Source of the DNA: Lentisphaerota bacterium | Lineage (GTDB): Bacteria; Verrucomicrobiota; Kiritimatiellia; CAIQIC01; Lenti-01 | Length of the DNA: 34,394 nucleotides | Assembly: GCA_012511885.1 (NCBI GenBank) | Contig: JAAZFE010000110.1 | Location: 1-34,394 of the forward strand | Reading direction: 5' to 3' | Part shown: positions 5,705-17,435 of the stretch, one piece after another | Layout of the letters: every line of letters begins with the position of its first letter | How positions within the stretch are numbered: position 1 is the first letter of the stretch | The notes under the pieces: generated by a model | Told to the model about the DNA's origin: nothing | Database searches by the model: none | The model's input: the letters and a program-made list of their open reading frames with translations, nothing else | Program-made: the position numbers and the translations under genes

Positions 5705-5734
5705 CCGACGCTCCACTGTCCGCACGCGGGTCAT
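5705..5734 (-). repeat. Start-tag repeat copy A (orphan, no MNT downstream)
   Basis: Minus strand ATGACCCGCGTGCGGACAGTGGAGCGTCGG; core GCGGACAGTGGAGCGKCGG shared with copies B, C and D. Confidence 0.85.
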
Positions 5735-6147
5735 GCTTGCCCCCCTTCGGAAGATATTGCCTTTGTTTCCAGCAACGCCAGGAGAACCCCTCGCAACTGA
5801 TCGGCTTTGGCCACCAATTTTTTAGCGCGAGTGGGCGAGGGGTCGTCTCCCTCATAACGGGTCAGTACCGCGCATTGAGTAAGTTGGCGGCACATATCTT
5901 GCCAAACGCGCATGGACGCATCTTCGGGGAACGCCCGGCGCATCAATGCCGATACATCGTGAATCCGCGGAGGCGCAATCCCCTGCTGGACGAGAAGCGC
6001 CTTCAATGTTTTTTCTACCGCTTGCTGCGCGTGCAAACAAACGGTGTCCCATGGAATGCGCGCCGATGCCAAATTGTTTTGGACATTCAGCCAGTCGTTC
6101 TCTGCCTTGCGAAGCCAGACAGCCACACCCTGTTCACGCGCGGTCAT
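5731..6147 (-). CDS. HEPN domain protein (MNT partner, module 1)
   Basis: MTAREQGVAVWLRKAENDWLNVQ...CLHAQQAVEKTLKALL...RIHDVSALMRRA: HEPN (PF05168-type) pattern. Start trimmed from ORF 5731..6282; overlaps the upstream MNT by 14 bp. Confidence 0.85.
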   Translation of the reverse strand: MTAREQGVAVWLRKAENDWLNVQNNLASARIPWDTVCLHAQQAVEKTLKALLVQQGIAPPRIHDVSALMRRAFPEDASMRVWQDMCRQLTQCAVLTRYEGDDPSPTRAKKLVAKADQLRGVLLALLETKAISSEGGQA

Positions 6148-6541
6148 ACAGCACAATCCCTTCCTCTTCGACCGCGTCCACGATAAACCCTGCGCCGCGC
6201 AGGGCGGCGGCTGCTTCTCGCGGCGTATAGACGATGAAATCCATCGCCCACGTCCGATCCTCAAACAACCGGTCCATCGCAACAGCGCGCATCATCCGAT
6301 CCGAGCGGGTTTCCATCACGACAAACAAATCAATATCGCTGTCCGCCCGGGCATCGCCCCGCGCCCGGCTCCCGAACAGCACCACCCGCACCGGCGCGCA
6401 CTCCCGCACAATCCGCTCCGTAATGCTGCGCAACAGCCCCGCCTCCAGCCCAACTTCGGCATTCCCCGGCAACCCCGCCCAAGGCATCCCCTGCCTCGCG
6501 CGCGCCACCCGCCGCCGCTCCACTGTCCGCACGCTACTCAT
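6134..6541 (-). CDS. MNT-type minimal nucleotidyltransferase (module 1)
   Basis: VVLFGSRARGDARADSDIDLFVVM: GS...DxD nucleotidyltransferase motif; N-terminal MSSVRTVERRR tag. Confidence 0.9.
   Translation of the reverse strand: MSSVRTVERRRVARARQGMPWAGLPGNAEVGLEAGLLRSITERIVRECAPVRVVLFGSRARGDARADSDIDLFVVMETRSDRMMRAVAMDRLFEDRTWAMDFIVYTPREAAAALRGAGFIVDAVEEEGIVLYDRA
6512..6541 (-). repeat. Start-tag repeat copy B
   Basis: Minus strand ATGAGTAGCGTGCGGACAGTGGAGCGGCGG at the MNT1 start. Confidence 0.9.
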
Positions 6542-7026
6542 GCCCGTTCCCCCTTCGGCTTTTTGGCAGATGCCGTCTTAGGCAATGCCGTTTTTGAACT
6601 GTTTGAAGTAGAGGTGGAGGTTGGGTCTAACTCAAACTGCTTAATAAAATCACGGCACTGTGCAACCAAGGCGGCTGAGTCCTGCACATCCTTTTTGGCC
6701 GACTCCAAATCCCCAACAAAAGTCCAGTCATAATCTGCCAATTGACGGTTGCCAAATAACCGATGGAGGATTTTGGCAGACTCCTTCTCGAAGGTTCCAG
6801 TGCGGACAAATCGAGAATTGAATGCTCCAATCGTTTGAGCATGCGAACGAAACTCAAGCCTCTCTGTCGCCAAAACAGCCGTTATGGCATGAAAAGCGGC
6901 ATAATAAGCGTGGGTGGTGGCTTCCTCCCAATATCCGGCCTTCAGTTCACGCCGGGCCGCCGCCAGCTTCCTTTTTGCTTTGGCCAGCATTTGGCGCAAG
7001 ACCGTTCTGGAAATGGCGCGGGTCAT
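6538..7026 (-). CDS. HEPN domain protein (module 2)
   Basis: MTRAISRTVLRQMLAKAKRKLAAARRELKAGYWEEATTHAYYAAFHAITAVL: HEPN helix pattern. ATGA overlaps with MNT2 stop and with MNT1 start. Confidence 0.85.
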   Translation of the reverse strand: MTRAISRTVLRQMLAKAKRKLAAARRELKAGYWEEATTHAYYAAFHAITAVLATERLEFRSHAQTIGAFNSRFVRTGTFEKESAKILHRLFGNRQLADYDWTFVGDLESAKKDVQDSAALVAQCRDFIKQFELDPTSTSTSNSSKTALPKTASAKKPKGERA

Positions 7027-7361
7027 AGCTCCACCCCTTCCCGCAGAATATTCCATCCCAACGGCGATTGTTGGACTTGCTCCCACTGCTCCGGGCTATA
7101 AACTAGCGCAGTGCAGAGCTGATCGGTTTCCAGCAGCAATTGCGCGCCCGTAGCCATCACCGTCTCGCGTTCTTTCTGCGTGGGCGAATCCAGCACCACC
7201 AGAAAATCATAATCGGAACCGGCATGGGCATCGCCGCGGGCACGCGAGCCATACAAGGTGATCAACCGCACCTGCCCCGCCAATTCAGCGCGAAGCGCCC
7301 GCGCATATCGCCGCGCAAGCTGCGGTGCCCGCCGACGCTCCACTGTCCGCGCGCCGCTCAT
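7023..7361 (-). CDS. MNT-type nucleotidyltransferase (module 2)
   Basis: LITLYGSRARGDAHAGSDYDFLVVL motif; N-terminal MSGARTVERRR tag. Confidence 0.9.
   Translation of the reverse strand: MSGARTVERRRAPQLARRYARALRAELAGQVRLITLYGSRARGDAHAGSDYDFLVVLDSPTQKERETVMATGAQLLLETDQLCTALVYSPEQWEQVQQSPLGWNILREGVEL
7332..7361 (-). repeat. Start-tag repeat copy C
   Basis: Minus strand ATGAGCGGCGCGCGGACAGTGGAGCGTCGG at the MNT2 start. Confidence 0.9.
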
Positions 7362-7368
7362 CGCGCCA

Positions 7369-7490
7369 CTCCTGACTCACGACTCCCGACTCGCGACTCC
7401 CGCCTCTCAATTCCGAGCCTGCTGGCGACTGCCTCCTGCCCCCACTTGGACATTGGATTTGAATATTGAATATTGGATATTGCCTCCCCC
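7369..7490. repeat. Short-period intergenic repeats (GACTCNC 7-mers; ATTGGATATTGAATATTG-type)
   Basis: 'gactcacgactcccgactcgcgactcccg' followed by 'attggacattggatttgaatattgaatattggatattg'. Confidence 0.8.
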
Positions 7491-7662
7491 CTCCTGCCCC
7501 CTGTCCCCTGCCCCAGCCCCCCTCCGCGCTCTTCGCGCCTCTGCGAGAGACCCGGCTGTTCGGCTCCCCGGCTGTTCCTTCTGGCCCCTGTCTCCTGACC
7601 ACTGGCTACTTCCGTTGGCACCTGAGCCAGTGAAAGAGAAACAAAAATTGGGGCATGCCGCT

Positions 7663-8070
7663 TCATTTCTTCTGCTCCCTTGAACCACCCGGACTGGGCA
7701 AAAGCAACGCCAACTGTTCCCTGCAACGGTCCATGGCATCAATGGCCAGCGCCGCCTGTTCGCGGGTGGCATCGACGCCGGGATAGCGAAATGCGATGGC
7801 ATACTGCGAAAGCAATTCCAAATCATTGCGAAGCAATTCCGTTAGAGCTGAACATGGCGGACATTCTGCCAATAACACCACAAGGTCATGAACCTTGCGG
7901 ATCGGTTGGTTGATTGATTCCAAAATGGCTTTGATGGTTTTCTCGACGCACTGCTGGGCATGAAAACACGCACTGTCAAAGTTCGGGCGCTTCCGTGCGC
8001 GAAATTCCCGCCGGGCGGAAACCGCATCCGCTTCAGCCTTCTGCAACCACGCTTTAACGGCGCTTTTCAT
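7663..8070 (-). CDS. HEPN domain protein (module 3)
   Basis: MKSAVKAWLQKAEADAVSARREF...NFDSACFHAQQCVEKTIKAILE...HDLVVLLAECPPC...YAIAFRYPG: HEPN signature. Start trimmed from the ORF. Confidence 0.9.
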   Translation of the reverse strand: MKSAVKAWLQKAEADAVSARREFRARKRPNFDSACFHAQQCVEKTIKAILESINQPIRKVHDLVVLLAECPPCSALTELLRNDLELLSQYAIAFRYPGVDATREQAALAIDAMDRCREQLALLLPSPGGSREQKK

Positions 8071-8368
8071 ACAGCACCTTTCCCCGCTCCAGCACCGAGC
8101 AGATGAATCCATCGCGGTCTTGCACGCCGCGCCGGACTTCACCCGGAGTCTTGACAATCAAATCCAGCGGAAACGACCGCGGAATCCGGCGGCGAATCTC
8201 CAGCGCACGATCAGCGCCATTTTGCGCCCCCGCCATCACCACCATCAAATCCACATCGCTGTCCGCCGTGGCCCGGCCTTCCGCCATCGAACCAAACAGG
8301 ATGACCCGCTCCGGATGGAACTGATCCGCCAAGCGATCCACATACTGCTGGACCTGCCGCATAATCAT
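8054..8368 (-). CDS. MNT-type nucleotidyltransferase (module 3)
   Basis: ERVILFGSMAEGRATADSDVDLMVVM motif; lacks the RTVERRR start tag. Confidence 0.9.
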   Translation of the reverse strand: MIMRQVQQYVDRLADQFHPERVILFGSMAEGRATADSDVDLMVVMAGAQNGADRALEIRRRIPRSFPLDLIVKTPGEVRRGVQDRDGFICSVLERGKVLYEKRR

Positions 8369-8397
8369 GGCGCACTCCGCTGCGTTCGAGGGGCTGC

Positions 8398-8740
8398 AGA
8401 AGGGGTCAGTCCTTGCATTGTCGCAACCAAGGGGGCAGTCCTATTCCCATCTGCCCGATTCGTTTTGCCCGCGGGGTCACCGACCCCGCCTACAGTCAAA
8501 CCCATTCCGCAACCTGTAGCCGGTCTCGTTGAGGCCGGTGTTCTTCCGCGTTCGTGCGCGTAATTCGTCACAAAAGGGGTCAGCCCTATATGATGATGTT
8601 TTGGGCCCTGTCCAGCGCTATGGACGCTGGCGGCACGCGGCATGGCCGAGCCACCGCGCCCAGCGGGCGCACCTACAGTCCGATCCAAGCCAGACCGCCG
8701 ATTCGCATCCAGGCGCAATGGCTGCCGTGTTTCTAACCGC
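8398..8740. repeat. Hairpin-rich intergenic repeat block with RAAGGGGTCAGYCCT-type motifs
   Basis: 'agaaggggtcagtcct' (8398) and 'caaaaggggtcagccct' (8571); perfect hairpin GCGGGGTC-ACC-GACCCCGC (8471-8489); CCGGTCTC-GTT-GAGGCCGG; CCAGCG...CGCTGG. Confidence 0.7.
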
Positions 8741-8747
8741 ACCGTGC

Positions 8748-9155
8748 TCATGCCCGTGCCCCTTCGCGAAGTCGCGTGGGCACCCATTCCAGCGCCACAC
8801 GCGCTTTCTGCGCCGCCGCCAGGGCTTCCTCCAACGGAATTTCACGCCAGTCATCCGGGTAACGGCTTTGTGAAGCATAGTCGGTCAGCTCCGTGGCGAT
8901 TGCCTCCAAGTGCGACACCTCCGGGCGCGTCTTGGCGCAAAGCGCCACCAGGCGGCGTAAATTGTGCGTGCGCTCCACATGGCGATTTTCTTGCGTTAAA
9001 AGAGCTTTCAACGCCTTCTCCACGCATTGGTACGCATGATAGCAGGTCACATCGGTCACAGGCGGCACCTGCGCCGCCATAACCTCCGCCGTGCGCAAGT
9101 CATTGGCAGCTTTAGTCAGCCACCGGCCCACCGCTAATTGGAGCGCATCAGCCAT
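8748..9155 (-). CDS. HEPN domain protein (module 4)
   Basis: MADALQLAVGRWLTKAANDLRTAEVMAAQ...CYHAYQCVEKALKALLTQENRHVERTHNLRRLVALC...DYASQSRYPDDW: HEPN signature; overlaps MNT4 by 8 bp. Confidence 0.9.
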   Translation of the reverse strand: MADALQLAVGRWLTKAANDLRTAEVMAAQVPPVTDVTCYHAYQCVEKALKALLTQENRHVERTHNLRRLVALCAKTRPEVSHLEAIATELTDYASQSRYPDDWREIPLEEALAAAQKARVALEWVPTRLREGARA

Positions 9156-9540
9156 AGCACAACACCCCGTTTTCATGCACCTCGCGCGCCAATGTGTTGG
9201 CAATCCCGCGCTGCTCTTCAAATTCACCGGTGCCCATGACCGATACATCCAACGCAACCGCCGGAGAGGAAAACAAACGATGAACTTGCAACTGAATGTC
9301 ACGATGGCTGGTTTCGCCATCCAAAAGAATCAGCACATCCACATCGCTCTCCAGCGTCGCTCCGCCCGTCACGCGAGAGCCATAAACGTGAATTTGTGTC
9401 GGGCGAATCGCCTCCGCGATTTTCTCCACGACCAAGCGGACCAGCGGATCCTCGCCGCGGTACAACACAGTGCCCGGAGTCAAAGTCGTTCGTTGCCCCC
9501 GCGCCGCCCGCCGCCGCTCCACTGTCCGCACGCTGCTCAT
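9148..9540 (-). CDS. MNT-type nucleotidyltransferase (module 4)
   Basis: IHVYGSRVTGGATLESDVDVLILLDG; N-terminal MSSVRTVERRR tag with ATG at 9540 (the ORF track start at 9582 is an alternative). Confidence 0.85.
   Translation of the reverse strand: MSSVRTVERRRAARGQRTTLTPGTVLYRGEDPLVRLVVEKIAEAIRPTQIHVYGSRVTGGATLESDVDVLILLDGETSHRDIQLQVHRLFSSPAVALDVSVMGTGEFEEQRGIANTLAREVHENGVLCYG
9511..9540 (-). repeat. Start-tag repeat copy D
   Basis: Minus strand ATGAGCAGCGTGCGGACAGTGGAGCGGCGG at the MNT4 start. Confidence 0.9.
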
Positions 9541-9989
9541 CGCGCAACTCCTCGCACTCGACCCTCTGCCGCCCTCATCCAAAAAGGCCGCAATGTTCCG
9601 CAGGTATGTCGTGTTCTCATCGTTTCACTCACTCGGTTGAGTTGCTCGCAAAATCCCGGTAAAAATGTTGTTCCAAACTGCTTCGATCTCGTTTCTTCGC
9701 CACGCGCACAACGATCCTTCGCTCCCCTCAATACATGTGTGCACAATCCCAGACATTTATATATAACAAACATCCTCTATTCCCCCTTCCCTGTCAAGGC
9801 GCTAACACGATCCCAACAATCCCCCCCCCAAAAAAAATAACAACCGCCACCCATGCTACCTTGCAGCACAAGGTACCCCCCAAAATCCCGCATTCACCCA
9901 TTCTCGCATTTCCCCGACTCCCCCTCCCCAGTTCCGTAGCCTGTAGTCTGTCGTCTGTCGTCTCTGGTCTGCGCGGCGCAGCCGCGCCC

Positions 9990-10690
9990 CCTCCTCCCGC
10001 TTGCGCTCCTCTTGCGTCCCTCGCGCCTCTTGCGTTAAAAATGCGCCCCAGCGCCAACGGTAGGTGCCTGTCCGCCTCGGGCGAAACGCATCGCGAGACA
10101 TCCCCCCCCCAAAAACAACCGCCACCCCCTATGCTACCTTGCGTTACAAGGTACCATGCCCCCCCTCCCCTCCTCTTCCCCTTTTGCGTTTTTTGCGCGC
10201 TTTGTGGTTCCCCAAAAATCCCGCAATCTCGCATTCCCCCCCTCCCCCATTTCCTCCTGCCCCCCCTTTTGTGTTTTTTGCGCTCTTTGTGGTTACAAAA
10301 ATCTCTTCCCCCGCTTGCGCTCCTCTCGCGCTCCTCGCGCCTCTTGCGTTAAAAAATGCGCCCCAGCGCCAACGGTAGGTGCCTGTCCGCCTCGGGCGAA
10401 ACGCATCGCGAGACATCCCCCCCCAAAAAACAACCGCCACCCCCCATGCTACCTTGCGTTACAAGGTACCATGCCCCCCTTCCCCTCCTCTTCCCCTTTT
10501 GCGTTTTTTGCGCTCTCTGTGGTTCCCCGAAATCCCGCAATCTCGCATTCCCCCCCTCCCCCATTTCCTCCTGCCCCCCCCTTTTGTGTTTTTTGTGCTC
10601 TTTGTGGTTACAAAAATCTCTTCCCCCGCTTGCGCTCCTCTTGCGTCCCTCGCGCCTTTTGCGTTAAAAATGCGCCTCCCTGGCACTTCG
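9990..10690. repeat. ~315-bp tandem repeat, about 2.2 copies
   Basis: 'taggtgcctgtccgcctcgggcgaaacgcatcgcgagacatcccccccc' at 10061 and 10376 (period 315); 'atgctaccttgcgttacaaggtaccatgcccccc' and 'tttgtggttacaaaaatctcttcccccgcttgcgctcctc' recur at the same spacing. Confidence 0.9.
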
Positions 10691-13186: not shown

Positions 13187-13414
13187 GCCGCTATAATTTG
13201 GCGTTCTGTTTACCATCACCAGCCCAGACCGCGCGACAAACGCTCCCGCGCTCGCCCCGCGAGTCTCTCTATTCTTTGTCACATCTTCAATGGACATTGG
13301 ATATAATCCAATCCCTGATGGAAAAGTGCACCACGTTCTCAGAAATTGCAAGTGCAAATTTAACCGTTTTTTCATTTTTCAAGTTCACCCTTCGCGTCTC
13401 CACATGAGCCTGGA

Positions 13415-13600
13415 TGATTCACGCGACAAGTCCGGCCCGGATGCAAGGCGGGCGGGGTGAAGCTGTATGGACAACCTGCGAGCCCCGAATAACGCCGCAG
13501 ACGGGTTGGAATCGTCGCGCCGAAGGGCAACATGGCTGAAAATTGATGAAAACCTGAACCTGCTACTCTGCAGTGAAATAAAACCGTTTCAGCCATGTTG
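13415..13600 (+). other. Candidate degraded structured RNA, possibly a group II intron 5' fragment
   Basis: 'cacgcgacaagtccggcccggatgcaaggcgggcggggtgaagctgtatggacaacctgcgagccccgaataacgccgcagacgggttggaatcg' resembles intron domain I style sequence by eye only; no RT ORF and no domain V recognised nearby. Confidence 0.25.
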
Positions 13601-13686
13601 ATGAATAATCCAGGTGAGACCGTCTGCTCCCCATAAACGCGCCAGCGTGTATGTAGTTTGTCCTCTCGCAACCGCGCCCCCCCCCC

Positions 13687-13894
13687 CCTCGACTCTCGAC
13701 ACTCAAAAACAGCCATTTTTGCCCCGTTTTCAGGAAATTTTGCTAGTTTTTGACGAATTTGGACCGTTTTGGCCGATTTTTTCTCGTTGTGGGCCGTTTT
13801 CCACCGTTTCCACAATTGCCGCCCCCCCCCCCGCGGGGCGCTCCCAAAGAAAACTATCTGCCCGATCCGTCTGATCCGACTGATCTGTCTGATC
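13687..13894. repeat. Composite intergenic element I: GACTCTC repeats + phased T-tracts + 9-bp GATC array
   Basis: T-tract starts at 13716,13727,13738,13747,13758,13767,13777,13787,13797,13807; GATC at 13864,13873,13882,13891. Confidence 0.85.
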
Positions 13895-14052
13895 GTTGCA
13901 TCTGGCGCAGCCGCGCACGCTTCCCCGCTTCTTCTATGCTGGCTCCGCGACGGGGCGGCTCAATATCTTAGGTTTTGTGTGCCGCAGCCCATTCATCCAA
14001 ATTTGTAACCCAATCCGCCCATATTTCTCCACATAACTTCAAAAAATTGCAA

Positions 14053-14138
14053 TTTTCCCATGTTTTATTCCCAAAATCGTTCGTTTTTACCCATTTCTGC
14101 TCCTTTTTTGCCCGTTTTTGCCCGGTTTTGCCCGGTTT
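14053..14138. repeat. Phased A/T-tract array
   Basis: Tract starts at 14053,14063,14073(A),14084,14094,14104,14115,14126,14136. Confidence 0.85.
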
Positions 14139-14383
14139 CGCGTCCGTCTCGATTTGTTTCTGGGCGAAAAAATCTTTCGCCCCTACCCCCCCTGCGGCCC
14201 CCGAGCCGCCCCCCAAAAATAATTTGTGTCCATTCGCGTCCATTCGCGGTTCAAACCCCATTCTTTGTGTTTTTTGTGTTCTTTGTGGTTCCCCAAAAAT
14301 CCGCAATCGACCATTCCCGCACTCTCGCAATCTCGCAATTCTCTCTCCCTTTTCTCCTGCACTTCGGCTATAATGCGTCCCTT

Positions 14384-15136
14384 ATGAACATACTGCACAG
14401 CCAAACGGTGGAATATCTCCGTTATCTCAAAGAACAGGGCATCACCCATGTTCCGGGTACCAGCAAACAGCCCGTCACGCCGGTCAAACGCGCTCCAAAA
14501 GCTGCCCCTGATCCCGCCCCCGCCGCCCCTCCTCTTGCCGGCGCCGCGCCACGAGGCGGCTTGACCCAGTCGGTGGAATTGCAGCTCATCACCGACGAAG
14601 TGGCCGCCTGCCGACGCTGTCTCCTGCACCGCACCCGCACCCGGACCGTCCCCGGTCAGGGCGCTCTGCGGCCCGATGTCATGTTTATCGGCGAAGGTCC
14701 CGGCGCCAACGAGGACGAGCAGGGCATTGCTTTTGTGGGCCGGGCGGGACAACTGCTCACCCGCATGATCGCCGCCATGGGCTACACCCGCGACGAAGTG
14801 TTTATCGGCAACATCGTCAAATGCCGCCCCCCCGGCAACCGCGTTCCCTCGCCCGAGGAAATGAACGATTGCATCCCCTATCTCAAACGGCAAATCGCGA
14901 TTATCCAGCCCAAACTGATCGTCTGCCTTGGCGCCACGGCGGCCCGCGGCCTCGTGCAGGAAACTCTGCCCATCGGCAAAGCACGGGGACAATGGCGCGA
15001 ATTCGAGGGTATTCCCGTCATGTTGACCTTCCACCCCGCCTATCTCCTGCGCGACGGCACCAAAAAAGGCGCCTGCTGGTCCGATCTCAAGGCCGTCCTG
15101 GCCCGCCTGGGCAAAACCCCGCCCAAACCCGCGTAG
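14384..15136 (+). CDS. Uracil-DNA glycosylase, family 4 (4Fe-4S type)
   Basis: [60 protein letters not shown] motifs; start trimmed to ATG 14384. Confidence 0.93.
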
Positions 15137-15151
15137 GCCCAGCTCGGAAAA

Positions 15152-15334
15152 CCCTCGACGCTCGACCCCCGGCTCTCGAAAAACGCCAACAACGCCGTTT
15201 GGGGTCAAATTCTGCCTGTTTTTGACGAATTTGGGCTGTTTTTGGTCCATTTTTGGCCGATTTTGGCCGATTTTGGACGTTTTTGGGCAGCTTCCGCCCC
15301 GATCTGTCTGATCCGACTGATCTGTCTGATCATT
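15152..15334. repeat. Composite intergenic element II: GACNCTC-type repeats + phased T-tracts + 9-bp GATC array
   Basis: T-tract starts 15198,15210,15219,15230,15239,15250,15261,15271,15280; GATC at 15301,15310,15319,15328. Confidence 0.85.
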
Positions 15335-15420
15335 TTACCTTGCCACCAGCAGTCGCACCAGCGGCGCAGCTGCGGCGCGCGCCGCTTGCTTCCCCAGGCC
15401 GGGACAAGTATTCTAGCCGT

Positions 15421-17205
15421 ATGAAAAAACTCCCGGTTTTGTTGCTGACGTTGCTTGTGTCCCTCCGGTTGGCTGGGGCCGATTCGCCCCCGCTCGGGTC
15501 TTTCCCCACCGCCAGCGGCTCGCTGTTCCGGGTGTGGGCGCCCTTCGCCAAATCGGCCGCCGTGGCCGGCGAGTTCTCGGACTGGCAGCCGCGCGACATG
15601 GACGCCATGGACACGGACGGCATCTGGAGTCTTTTTCTCCCCGAGGCCCGCGAAGGGCAGATGTACAAGTTCATCTTTAACGGCGACAACTGGAAACGTG
15701 ATCCGCGCTCGCGGCAGGTGGAACACTCCGACGGCAATTCCATCCTGTATGACCCCGCGGCCTTTGACTGGGGCGCGGTCCGCCCGCCCGAGATGCCGCG
15801 CGAGGATCTGGTGCTCTATCAACTGCATGTGGGCACATTTGCCGGTTGCGCGCCTCCGGCCACGTTCGACGACGCGATCAGTCGCCTCGATTATCTGAGC
15901 GGCCTGGGAATCACCGGCATTCAACTGATGCCGGTCAACGAGTTCCCGGGCGGGCTGAGCTGGGGGTACAATCCCGCCGACCTTTTCGCCATTGAAAGCG
16001 ACTACGGCGGGCCCGACGCCCTCAAGCGGTTCGTGCGCGCCGCCCACGCCCGCGGCATGGTTGTGCTGGCCGATATCGTCCATAACCACTATGGCCCCAC
16101 GGACCTCGACCTGTGGCGTTTCGATGGCTGGCACGAACAGGACTTCGGCGGCATCTACTTCTATTGCGACAGCCGAATCCATACTCCCTGGGGCTCGACC
16201 CGCCCCGATTTCGGTCGGCCCGAGGTGCGCGCGTTCATCCGCGACCAAGTCTTCATGTTCCTCGAAGAATATCGCCTGGACGGCTTCCGCTGGGACTCGG
16301 TTTACAACATCCTCCACAGCGATCACGGCTTCAATCCGCAAGGACGCGACATGTTGCGCGAAATCAATATGGACATGGCCCAGACCCATCCGCACGCGCT
16401 GCGCGTGGCCGAGGACACCGGTTTCGAGCACGACCTCCATTTCCAGGCCCAATGGGACATCGGCCACCGCTGGGCGCTCTTCAACCAACTGTCCACCGCC
16501 CACGATCCCGAGCGCGATATGCACACGATTGCCGGCACCCTGACCGACTGGCCCGGATTCCAGCGCGTCATCTTTACCGAGGCGCATGACTATGTGGCCC
16601 ACATGAACGACCAGCGCAGCCGCGTGCCCTCCATGATTCATCCCGACGAACCCGAAAGCATCTGGGCGCGCAAGCGGGCCCTGCTCGGCGCCGCCATGAT
16701 CTTCACCACGCCGGGCATCCCCATGATTTTTCAGGGACAGGAGATGCTGGAAACGCAGGCCTTCCACGACGACACGCCCCTGCGCTGGGAACGCGCGCAG
16801 TCCCACGCTGGAACGGTGCGGGCCTACACCGATCTGATTCGTTTGCGGCGCAATCTTGACGAAACCACCCCCGGGCTGCGCGGCGACCAGGTGCGCGTGG
16901 ACCTGCTCGACAACGAGCGCAAGCTGATCGCCTTCTCCCGCTGGCAAAGCGACCGCCCGGACGAACCGACCTTCGTCGTGGCCAATTTTTCCGCCGTGGA
17001 CTATGCGGAGGACGCTCCCGTCATCCCGTTCCCGGCCCCCGGGTTGTGGCAACGACGCTTCAACAGCGACTCCACAGCCTATGCCGAGGATTTCGGCAAT
17101 CTGGGCCCCGAGAGCGTGGTCATCCAAGCCGACACTCCCGCCGCGCCCGTCCCCATGGGCCGCTACAGCCTGCAAATCTTCTCCAAACTTCCCCCGGCTG
17201 AATAA
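15421..17205 (+). CDS. Secreted GH13 family alpha-glucan-acting enzyme (branching enzyme/trehalohydrolase-like)
   Basis: Signal peptide MKKLPVLLLTLLVSLRLAGA; E-set/CBM48-like N-terminus; LADIVHNHYG, GFRWDSVYNIL, RVAEDTGF, FTEAHDYVAH GH13 motifs. Confidence 0.9.
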   Translation: MKKLPVLLLTLLVSLRLAGADSPPLGSFPTASGSLFRVWAPFAKSAAVAGEFSDWQPRDMDAMDTDGIWSLFLPEAREGQMYKFIFNGDNWKRDPRSRQVEHSDGNSILYDPAAFDWGAVRPPEMPREDLVLYQLHVGTFAGCAPPATFDDAISRLDYLSGLGITGIQLMPVNEFPGGLSWGYNPADLFAIESDYGGPDALKRFVRAAHARGMVVLADIVHNHYGPTDLDLWRFDGWHEQDFGGIYFYCDSRIHTPWGSTRPDFGRPEVRAFIRDQVFMFLEEYRLDGFRWDSVYNILHSDHGFNPQGRDMLREINMDMAQTHPHALRVAEDTGFEHDLHFQAQWDIGHRWALFNQLSTAHDPERDMHTIAGTLTDWPGFQRVIFTEAHDYVAHMNDQRSRVPSMIHPDEPESIWARKRALLGAAMIFTTPGIPMIFQGQEMLETQAFHDDTPLRWERAQSHAGTVRAYTDLIRLRRNLDETTPGLRGDQVRVDLLDNERKLIAFSRWQSDRPDEPTFVVANFSAVDYAEDAPVIPFPAPGLWQRRFNSDSTAYAEDFGNLGPESVVIQADTPAAPVPMGRYSLQIFSKLPPAE

Positions 17206-17226
17206 GCGGTAGCTGCTCTCCCCCTG

Positions 17227-17435
17227 AGGACTCGACTCTCGACACCCGACTCGCGACTCTCAAAAAGCGCCGTTTTTGACGCATTGGGGACGTTTTTGGG
17301 CAATTTGGGACCGTTTTTGGCCATTTGGGGCGTTTTTGGCCCGTTTTGGCCTTTTCAGCCGTTACCGGCAGTTGCCGACAAACCCCGTCTCGATCTGTCC
17401 GATCAGTCGGATCCGTCTGATCTGTCTGATCTTTT
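17227..17435. repeat. Composite intergenic element III: GACTCTC repeats + phased T-tracts + 9-bp GATC array
   Basis: Main T-tracts at 17273,17293,17314,17333 alternating with TTGGG half-steps at 17285,17304,17324; GATC at 17392,17401,17410,17419,17428. Confidence 0.85.

Follow-up and report, generated by a model that had tools for sequence, protein, structure and literature searches.

In bacteria, helical periodicity of A-tracts has mostly been described as an average over whole genomes, and what it serves is unclear. Helically phased A-tract clusters in prokaryotic intergenic DNA have been proposed to aid compaction of the nucleoid, and the published signals are statistical, averaged over genomes and often close to 11 bp (PMC516772, PMC3431218, PMC3940949). 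The arrays described here share with them A/T tracts at the helical period and a concentration in intergenic DNA, but they are discrete, run continuously for up to 12 tracts without a centre, follow a rigid 10.26-bp lattice in a genome of 62% GC, and add a T-strand bias as well as flanking repeat modules. The periodicity is concentrated in countable arrays of one lineage and is nearly absent from its relatives.

Comparable in organization are the BIME/REP elements, in which short modules, palindromes among them, form mosaics dispersed over intergenic DNA (PMC2817692, PMC6379681), with REP elements serving as targets for some insertion sequences (IS; PMC1525189). The elements reported here are likewise dispersed intergenic mosaics of several short motifs in a recurrent order, and IS elements insert at them. 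In contrast to BIMEs, however, palindromes are present without forming an alternating REP core, this place being taken by a presumably curved T-tract array; moreover, the order of the modules is preferred and they also occur alone. Helically periodic AT/GC arms are furthermore a feature of the E. coli gyrase binding motif, a degenerate 130-bp sequence enriched in BIME-2, in which arms with a period of 10.75 bp extend over 47 bp on each side of a 36-bp non-periodic centre (PMC6379681). In another domain of life, the Periodic An/Tn Clusters (PATC) of C. elegans are non-coding A/T runs phased at the helical period (PMC7725773). Their germline anti-silencing role is inapplicable here, and no homology is implied. 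Finally, cyanobacteria carry short tandem heptamer repeats (STRR) in intergenic DNA. The TAACTGA repeats of Beggiatoaceae are tandem, intergenic heptamers as well (PMC4679880). Unlike in either case, the heptamers and GATC nonamers of the present elements only flank a putatively curved array, and their sequences differ. Our best reading is a BIME-like mosaic around a strongly curved segment that would serve nucleoid architecture.

Sequence data and sampling

The window, i.e. the whole stretch of 34,394 nucleotides analysed, is contig C80 of a draft genome (a Kiritimatiellae MAG of 2.49 Mb in 166 contigs, 84.6% complete). Its assignment to the Kiritimatiellae follows from the relatives of its uracil-DNA glycosylase. 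The survey of arrays covers 1.27 Mb, about half of the genome, taken as stretches and partly masked; in seven short contigs the letters are given as N. The contigs sampled first had been picked for their GATC matches, which is a caveat for the sample. Genes were called with a simple hexamer model.

Three composite copies in the window

A sequence-only reading of this DNA had proposed that a composite element of GACTCTC-type heptamers, a helically phased T-tract array and GATC repeats every 9 bp recurs three times in the same block order. This order is indeed found at all three places (Table 1), with degenerate heptamers in copy 2, and the 9-bp spacing of GATC can be read in each of them. The copies share one orientation and are intergenic, as had been claimed, beside a UDG-superfamily gene (udg), a GH13 alpha-amylase-type gene and an ABC-transporter ATPase gene. 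The motif TTTTTGACGAATTTGG, described as frequent within the T-arrays, is present in copies 1 and 2 but not in copy 3. That the copies are more than random low complexity was likewise confirmed: their helical phasing was matched by 1, 0 and 0 of 2000 dinucleotide shuffles each for copies 1, 2 and 3, respectively, and the reversed GATC pattern has no match in the genome.

Three features had been overlooked. An array without GATC block, upstream of udg, places the tracts A6, T4, T4, A4, T5, T3, T6, T5, T4 and T3 on one lattice (14041-14138). Additional modules, CGGCAGNTGCCG and GGCGC palindromes, follow the T-array and precede the GATC block. A MITE-like repeat (13409-13614) with inverted ends CCTGGATGATTCA...TGAATAATCCAGG lies immediately upstream of copy 1; its end motif has 34 matches in the stretches read, five of them near arrays.

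Table 1. Positions of composite copies and their blocks in the window, and of insertion sequence ends elsewhere in the genome (the latter with the label of the stretch).
Feature	Position	Strand	Remarks
Copy 1, whole composite	13687-13894	+	heptamers, T-tracts, GATC nonamers
Copy 1, heptamer block, GACTCTC GACACTC	13690..13706 (units 13691-13704)	+	
Copy 1, phased T-tract array	13716..13809	+	10 A/T tracts of at least 3, resultant 8.4 of 10
Copy 1, GATC nonamer array	13864..13894	+	4 GATC at 9 bp
Array without GATC block, upstream of udg	14041..14138	+	best-phased of the window, 9.6 of 10
Copy 2, whole composite	15152-15334	+	heptamers, T-tracts, GATC nonamers
Copy 2, degenerate heptamer block	15155..15177	+	from sequence and six-copy alignment
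Copy 2, phased T-tract array	15198..15284	+	resultant 8.1 of 9
Copy 2, GATC nonamer array	15301..15331	+	
Copy 3, whole composite	17227-17435	+	heptamers, T-tracts, GATC nonamers
Copy 3, heptamer block	17231..17261	+	four units
Copy 3, phased T-tract array	17262..17356	+	resultant 8.2 of 9
Copy 3, palindromic module CCGGCAGTTGCCG	17365..17377	+	follows the T-array, precedes the GATC block; other copies have it at this position too
Copy 3, GATC nonamer array	17392..17431	+	5 GATC
Multi-copy IS ends abutting arrays	L046 97, L047 97, L048 97, L050 97, L053 138, L076 9120, L117 7834		

The composite across the genome

Beyond the window, the same genome contains three further composite copies on contigs C35, C56 and C119 (the last contig ends before the heptamer side), giving six in total. 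The copies align across the boundary of heptamers and T-tracts (CTCAAAAA), the GATC block and the 3' flank, all of them conserved; the ends are degenerate. A T-preceded tandem GATC pattern (GATCNNNNTGATCNNNNTGATC) has 10 matches genome-wide and a broader GATC array pattern has 17, with none for the respective controls. Nine GATC arrays of at least three units could be read together with their surroundings, and in six of these a phased T-array of the same orientation lies 5'; the chance of six such pairings from proximity alone is about 0.001, although they do not count as six independent events because copies 2 and 3 have a common 3' flank. The strict order of heptamers, T-array and GATC block was encountered four times in about 1.27 Mb as compared to 0 of 1330 random placements.

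The blocks nevertheless lead lives of their own. Of the 133 T-arrays, no more than 6 are followed 3' by a GATC array and 127 are not. Among 39 heptamer clusters, 20 are not close to any array, and relatives carry GATC nonamers that lack a T-array, in part within genes. Each block therefore represents a repeat class of its own, and the classes are also found joined in a preferred order; among the remaining heptamer clusters, 10 stand 5' of a T-array, as opposed to about five for each other arrangement. Accordingly, the proposal of one family with a fixed order stands in part, supported by the alignable copies and the strict order, but the composite is not an obligatory unit. The outcome that would have spoken against the proposal, blocks scattered independently through the genome in no preferred order, applies in its first half only, since the blocks are independent, yet ordered when together. 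Heptamer and GATC blocks are simple tandem repeats in that adjacent units are copies of each other. On contig C24 (L065 1836-2322), three tandem mosaics consist of heptamers, a T-array, CGGCAGTTGCCGG, CGCCATGGCGCGTCAGCGCC and GCCGAGCCCCAGCTCGGC.

A straight lattice of T- and A-tracts

By a loose rule, 133 T-arrays were counted in the 1.27 Mb. Five of them fall inside genes, 62 have a gene on both sides, and 66 border a contig end, where assembly-breaking repeats would be expected. An array is present in about 15% of gaps of at least 150 bp (39/254, R at least 4), and strongly phased windows make up 3.4% of intergenic DNA but 0.04% of coding DNA and 0 of 7490 shuffled windows. In 281 kb of intergenic sequence, T4 tracts on the same strand peak at distances of 10-11, 20-21, 30-31, 41-42, 51-52 and 61 bp, with 205 pairs at 10 bp as compared to about 20 in the troughs and about 25 after shuffling. 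A/T tracts of at least 4 bp thus recur at the helical repeat over several turns, and A- and T-tracts keep one strand-independent phase, as in curved DNA; A-runs in the flanks are also in array phase (R 0.69-0.85 within 20 bp), an effect that fades at about 60 bp.

The distance variance in 39 chains of at least five tracts stays between 1.06 and 1.50 from lag 1 to lag 7, whereas permuted spacings rise from 1.06 to 6.4 and were as low as observed in 0 of 500 cases at lags 2-6 and in 0.6% at lag 7. As the variance hardly grows over seven turns, a random walk from independent linkers is rejected; successive spacings correlate at -0.48. The fit yields a lattice period of 10.26 bp (95% CI 10.19-10.32) with a residual of 0.61 bp, and a windowed estimate on raw lags, which is confounded by decay, was left out. 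The fitted value is near the spacing of about 10.3 bp per turn at which A-tract DNA curves most strongly. Slippage of a tandem 10-bp unit is rejected by the variance test together with the dissimilar linkers, 566 of 824 being distinct and those inside an array barely more alike than those of different arrays (0.51-0.53 versus 0.57). The straight lattice, the mostly unique linkers and the in-phase A-tracts are what intrinsic, planar curvature calls for and what slippage of units would not leave behind.

Gene context and insertion sequences

A preference of the element for gene 3' or 5' ends, suggested earlier as a point to check, did not emerge from the 62 intergenic arrays: in tandem gaps the two orientations of the T-strand relative to the genes are balanced, 16 versus 18. 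Arrays occur in 34 tandem, 15 divergent and 13 convergent gaps, proportions that follow the available intergenic length. Unrelated to gene strand, the T-strand favours the C-rich strand of the contig (47 versus 17, p about 2e-4; L026-L125).

The arrays also seem to draw insertion sequences. For a multi-copy IS, 7 of 9 insertions have an end no more than 250 bp from an array, a distance within which 16.5% of intergenic bases fall (p about 9e-5; positions in Table 1). This is consistent with arrays acting as structurally distinct targets, comparable to REP elements for some IS (PMC1525189). The transposase of this element begins with MKYHRITQEER and is presumably IS30-like.

Distribution among relatives

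Array matches with G/C-containing linkers number 68 (overlapping) in this genome, 16 in the congener G002 and 26 in G043, a member of a distant family of the class. Any such match was found in 21 of 195 genomes of the phylum, mostly one to three each, and with a looser pattern other family members carry some arrays as well. The arrays are hence largely restricted to this lineage and one distant family. The lattice test gave the same outcome in G043 and in loci of the family, more weakly owing to smaller numbers. An apparently array-rich genome, G029, was dismissed, as its matches had AT-rich linkers and none were left once G/C-containing linkers were required; likewise, a 12-tract array on contig 13 of G002 was dropped, since by eye it most likely encodes the lysine-rich tail of a protein.

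At individual loci, a phased array with unalignable linkers is found upstream of udg in G002 too, at a comparable position, and an array lies near a xanthine-dehydrogenase-like gene (named by eye) in both G010 and the present genome. Positional conservation was seen at only two or three loci, too few as proof because about 15% of the longer gaps hold an array anyway. Divergent array pairs (an A-array followed by a T-array, with a centre of about 8 to 130 bp) were seen on G010 C12 and C35, G043 C40 and G001 C489.

Possible roles of the arrays

On balance, we lean towards a dispersed mosaic intergenic repeat with a curved-DNA core, the phase of which is probably under selection and which would provide architectural sites of the nucleoid. 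The analysis establishes what the elements are composed of, their lattice, the common phase of A- and T-tracts, the position between genes, an orientation independent of gene strand and a distribution restricted to a lineage; bending in solution, selection on phase and the architectural role itself are inferences. The likeliest seat of function is the T-array alone. The core would comprise about 100 bp in which every helical turn has one T-tract or in-phase A-tract of 4-6 bp, and heptamers, small palindromes and GATC nonamers would be separate modules flanking it in a preferred order, either travelling with curved sites or accumulating at them. If the general A-tract values of 15-20 degrees of bend per tract hold, an array of about 100 bp may be expected to bend by perhaps 80-120 degrees in total, as a rough extrapolation. 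DNA bent to this extent would lend itself to loop apices, to binding of HU or to wrapping. Rather than acting as gene-specific promoters or terminators, the curved sites could form a pre-bent loop or superhelix apex to which HU or another general protein of the nucleoid, or gyrase, would bind. HU is encoded twice in the genome; it does not explain the distribution of arrays, since it is universal in relatives, those without arrays included. The preference of T-tracts for the C-rich strand is not predicted by pure curvature, and that most of the phylum has almost no arrays can be explained by a repeat burst in one lineage just as well as by a function.

Such a burst would also suit an unlikely alternative, namely that short tandem repeats and small palindromes gather in gaps through copying and insertion, as a selfish or neutral mosaic whose phase is inherited and not selected. 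Blocks found singly, six alignable copies, the tandem triplicates on contig C24, IS ends beside arrays and the lineage-specific burst are all in its favour, whereas under neutral indels the spacings should drift as in a random walk, which the variance test rejects, linkers are mostly unique while phase is held within 0.6 bp, A- and T-tracts are in common phase, and arrays are convergently present in G043. Gyrase is a rival as well, if not the favourite, and a rather improbable one: the phased arrays would be arms wrapping the C-terminal domains of GyrA, making each element a strong loading site like BIME-2 in E. coli. A periodic GC preference in all gyrases tested (PMC12324340), the periodic arms of the E. 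coli motif and the palindromes beside the periodic stretch agree with this, but the arrays lack the two-armed arrangement around a central gap, their period lies below that of the motif, and gyrase is universal whereas the arrays are not; owing to the period and the missing gap we do not favour it.

Very improbable is a role as transcription signals, i.e. U-tract terminators or UP-element-like promoter DNA. Copies 2 and 3 begin 16-26 bp past the stop codon of the same-strand upstream gene, and some arrays lie 100-250 bp ahead of a start codon; terminators or promoters in general are nonetheless ruled out by the even strand orientation towards upstream and downstream genes and by the gap statistics, and in-phase A-tracts on the other strand would make no sense as RNA signals. 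Histone-positioning DNA was excluded because an archaeal-type histone fold (PF00808 profile only) was detected in 0 of 38 genomes, with archaeal controls positive. A more speculative extension, to which we give little credence, is that this lineage has an architectural protein of its own, or a variant gyrase, that recognizes the rigid 10.26-bp T-tract lattice, so that the arrays would be bacterial counterparts of nucleosome-positioning DNA, about every 10 kb along the chromosome, with ends marked by the modules. Returning to the architectural sites favoured above, phase has been kept while linkers diverged, which makes selection on periodicity, and its reader, directly testable.

Other repeats and genes in the window

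The window holds several features apart from the arrays. Small minus-strand ORFs at 5731-9582 include, by eye, several pairs of nucleotidyltransferase (MNT) and HEPN type, some of which are preceded by a common short peptide-coding repeat (VRTVERR). A 315-bp direct repeat with 2.2 copies at 95% identity occupies positions 9996-10676. Immediately before udg, at 14228-14290, are other short tandem repeats, GTCCATTCGC and TTCTTTGTG, typical of such genomes.
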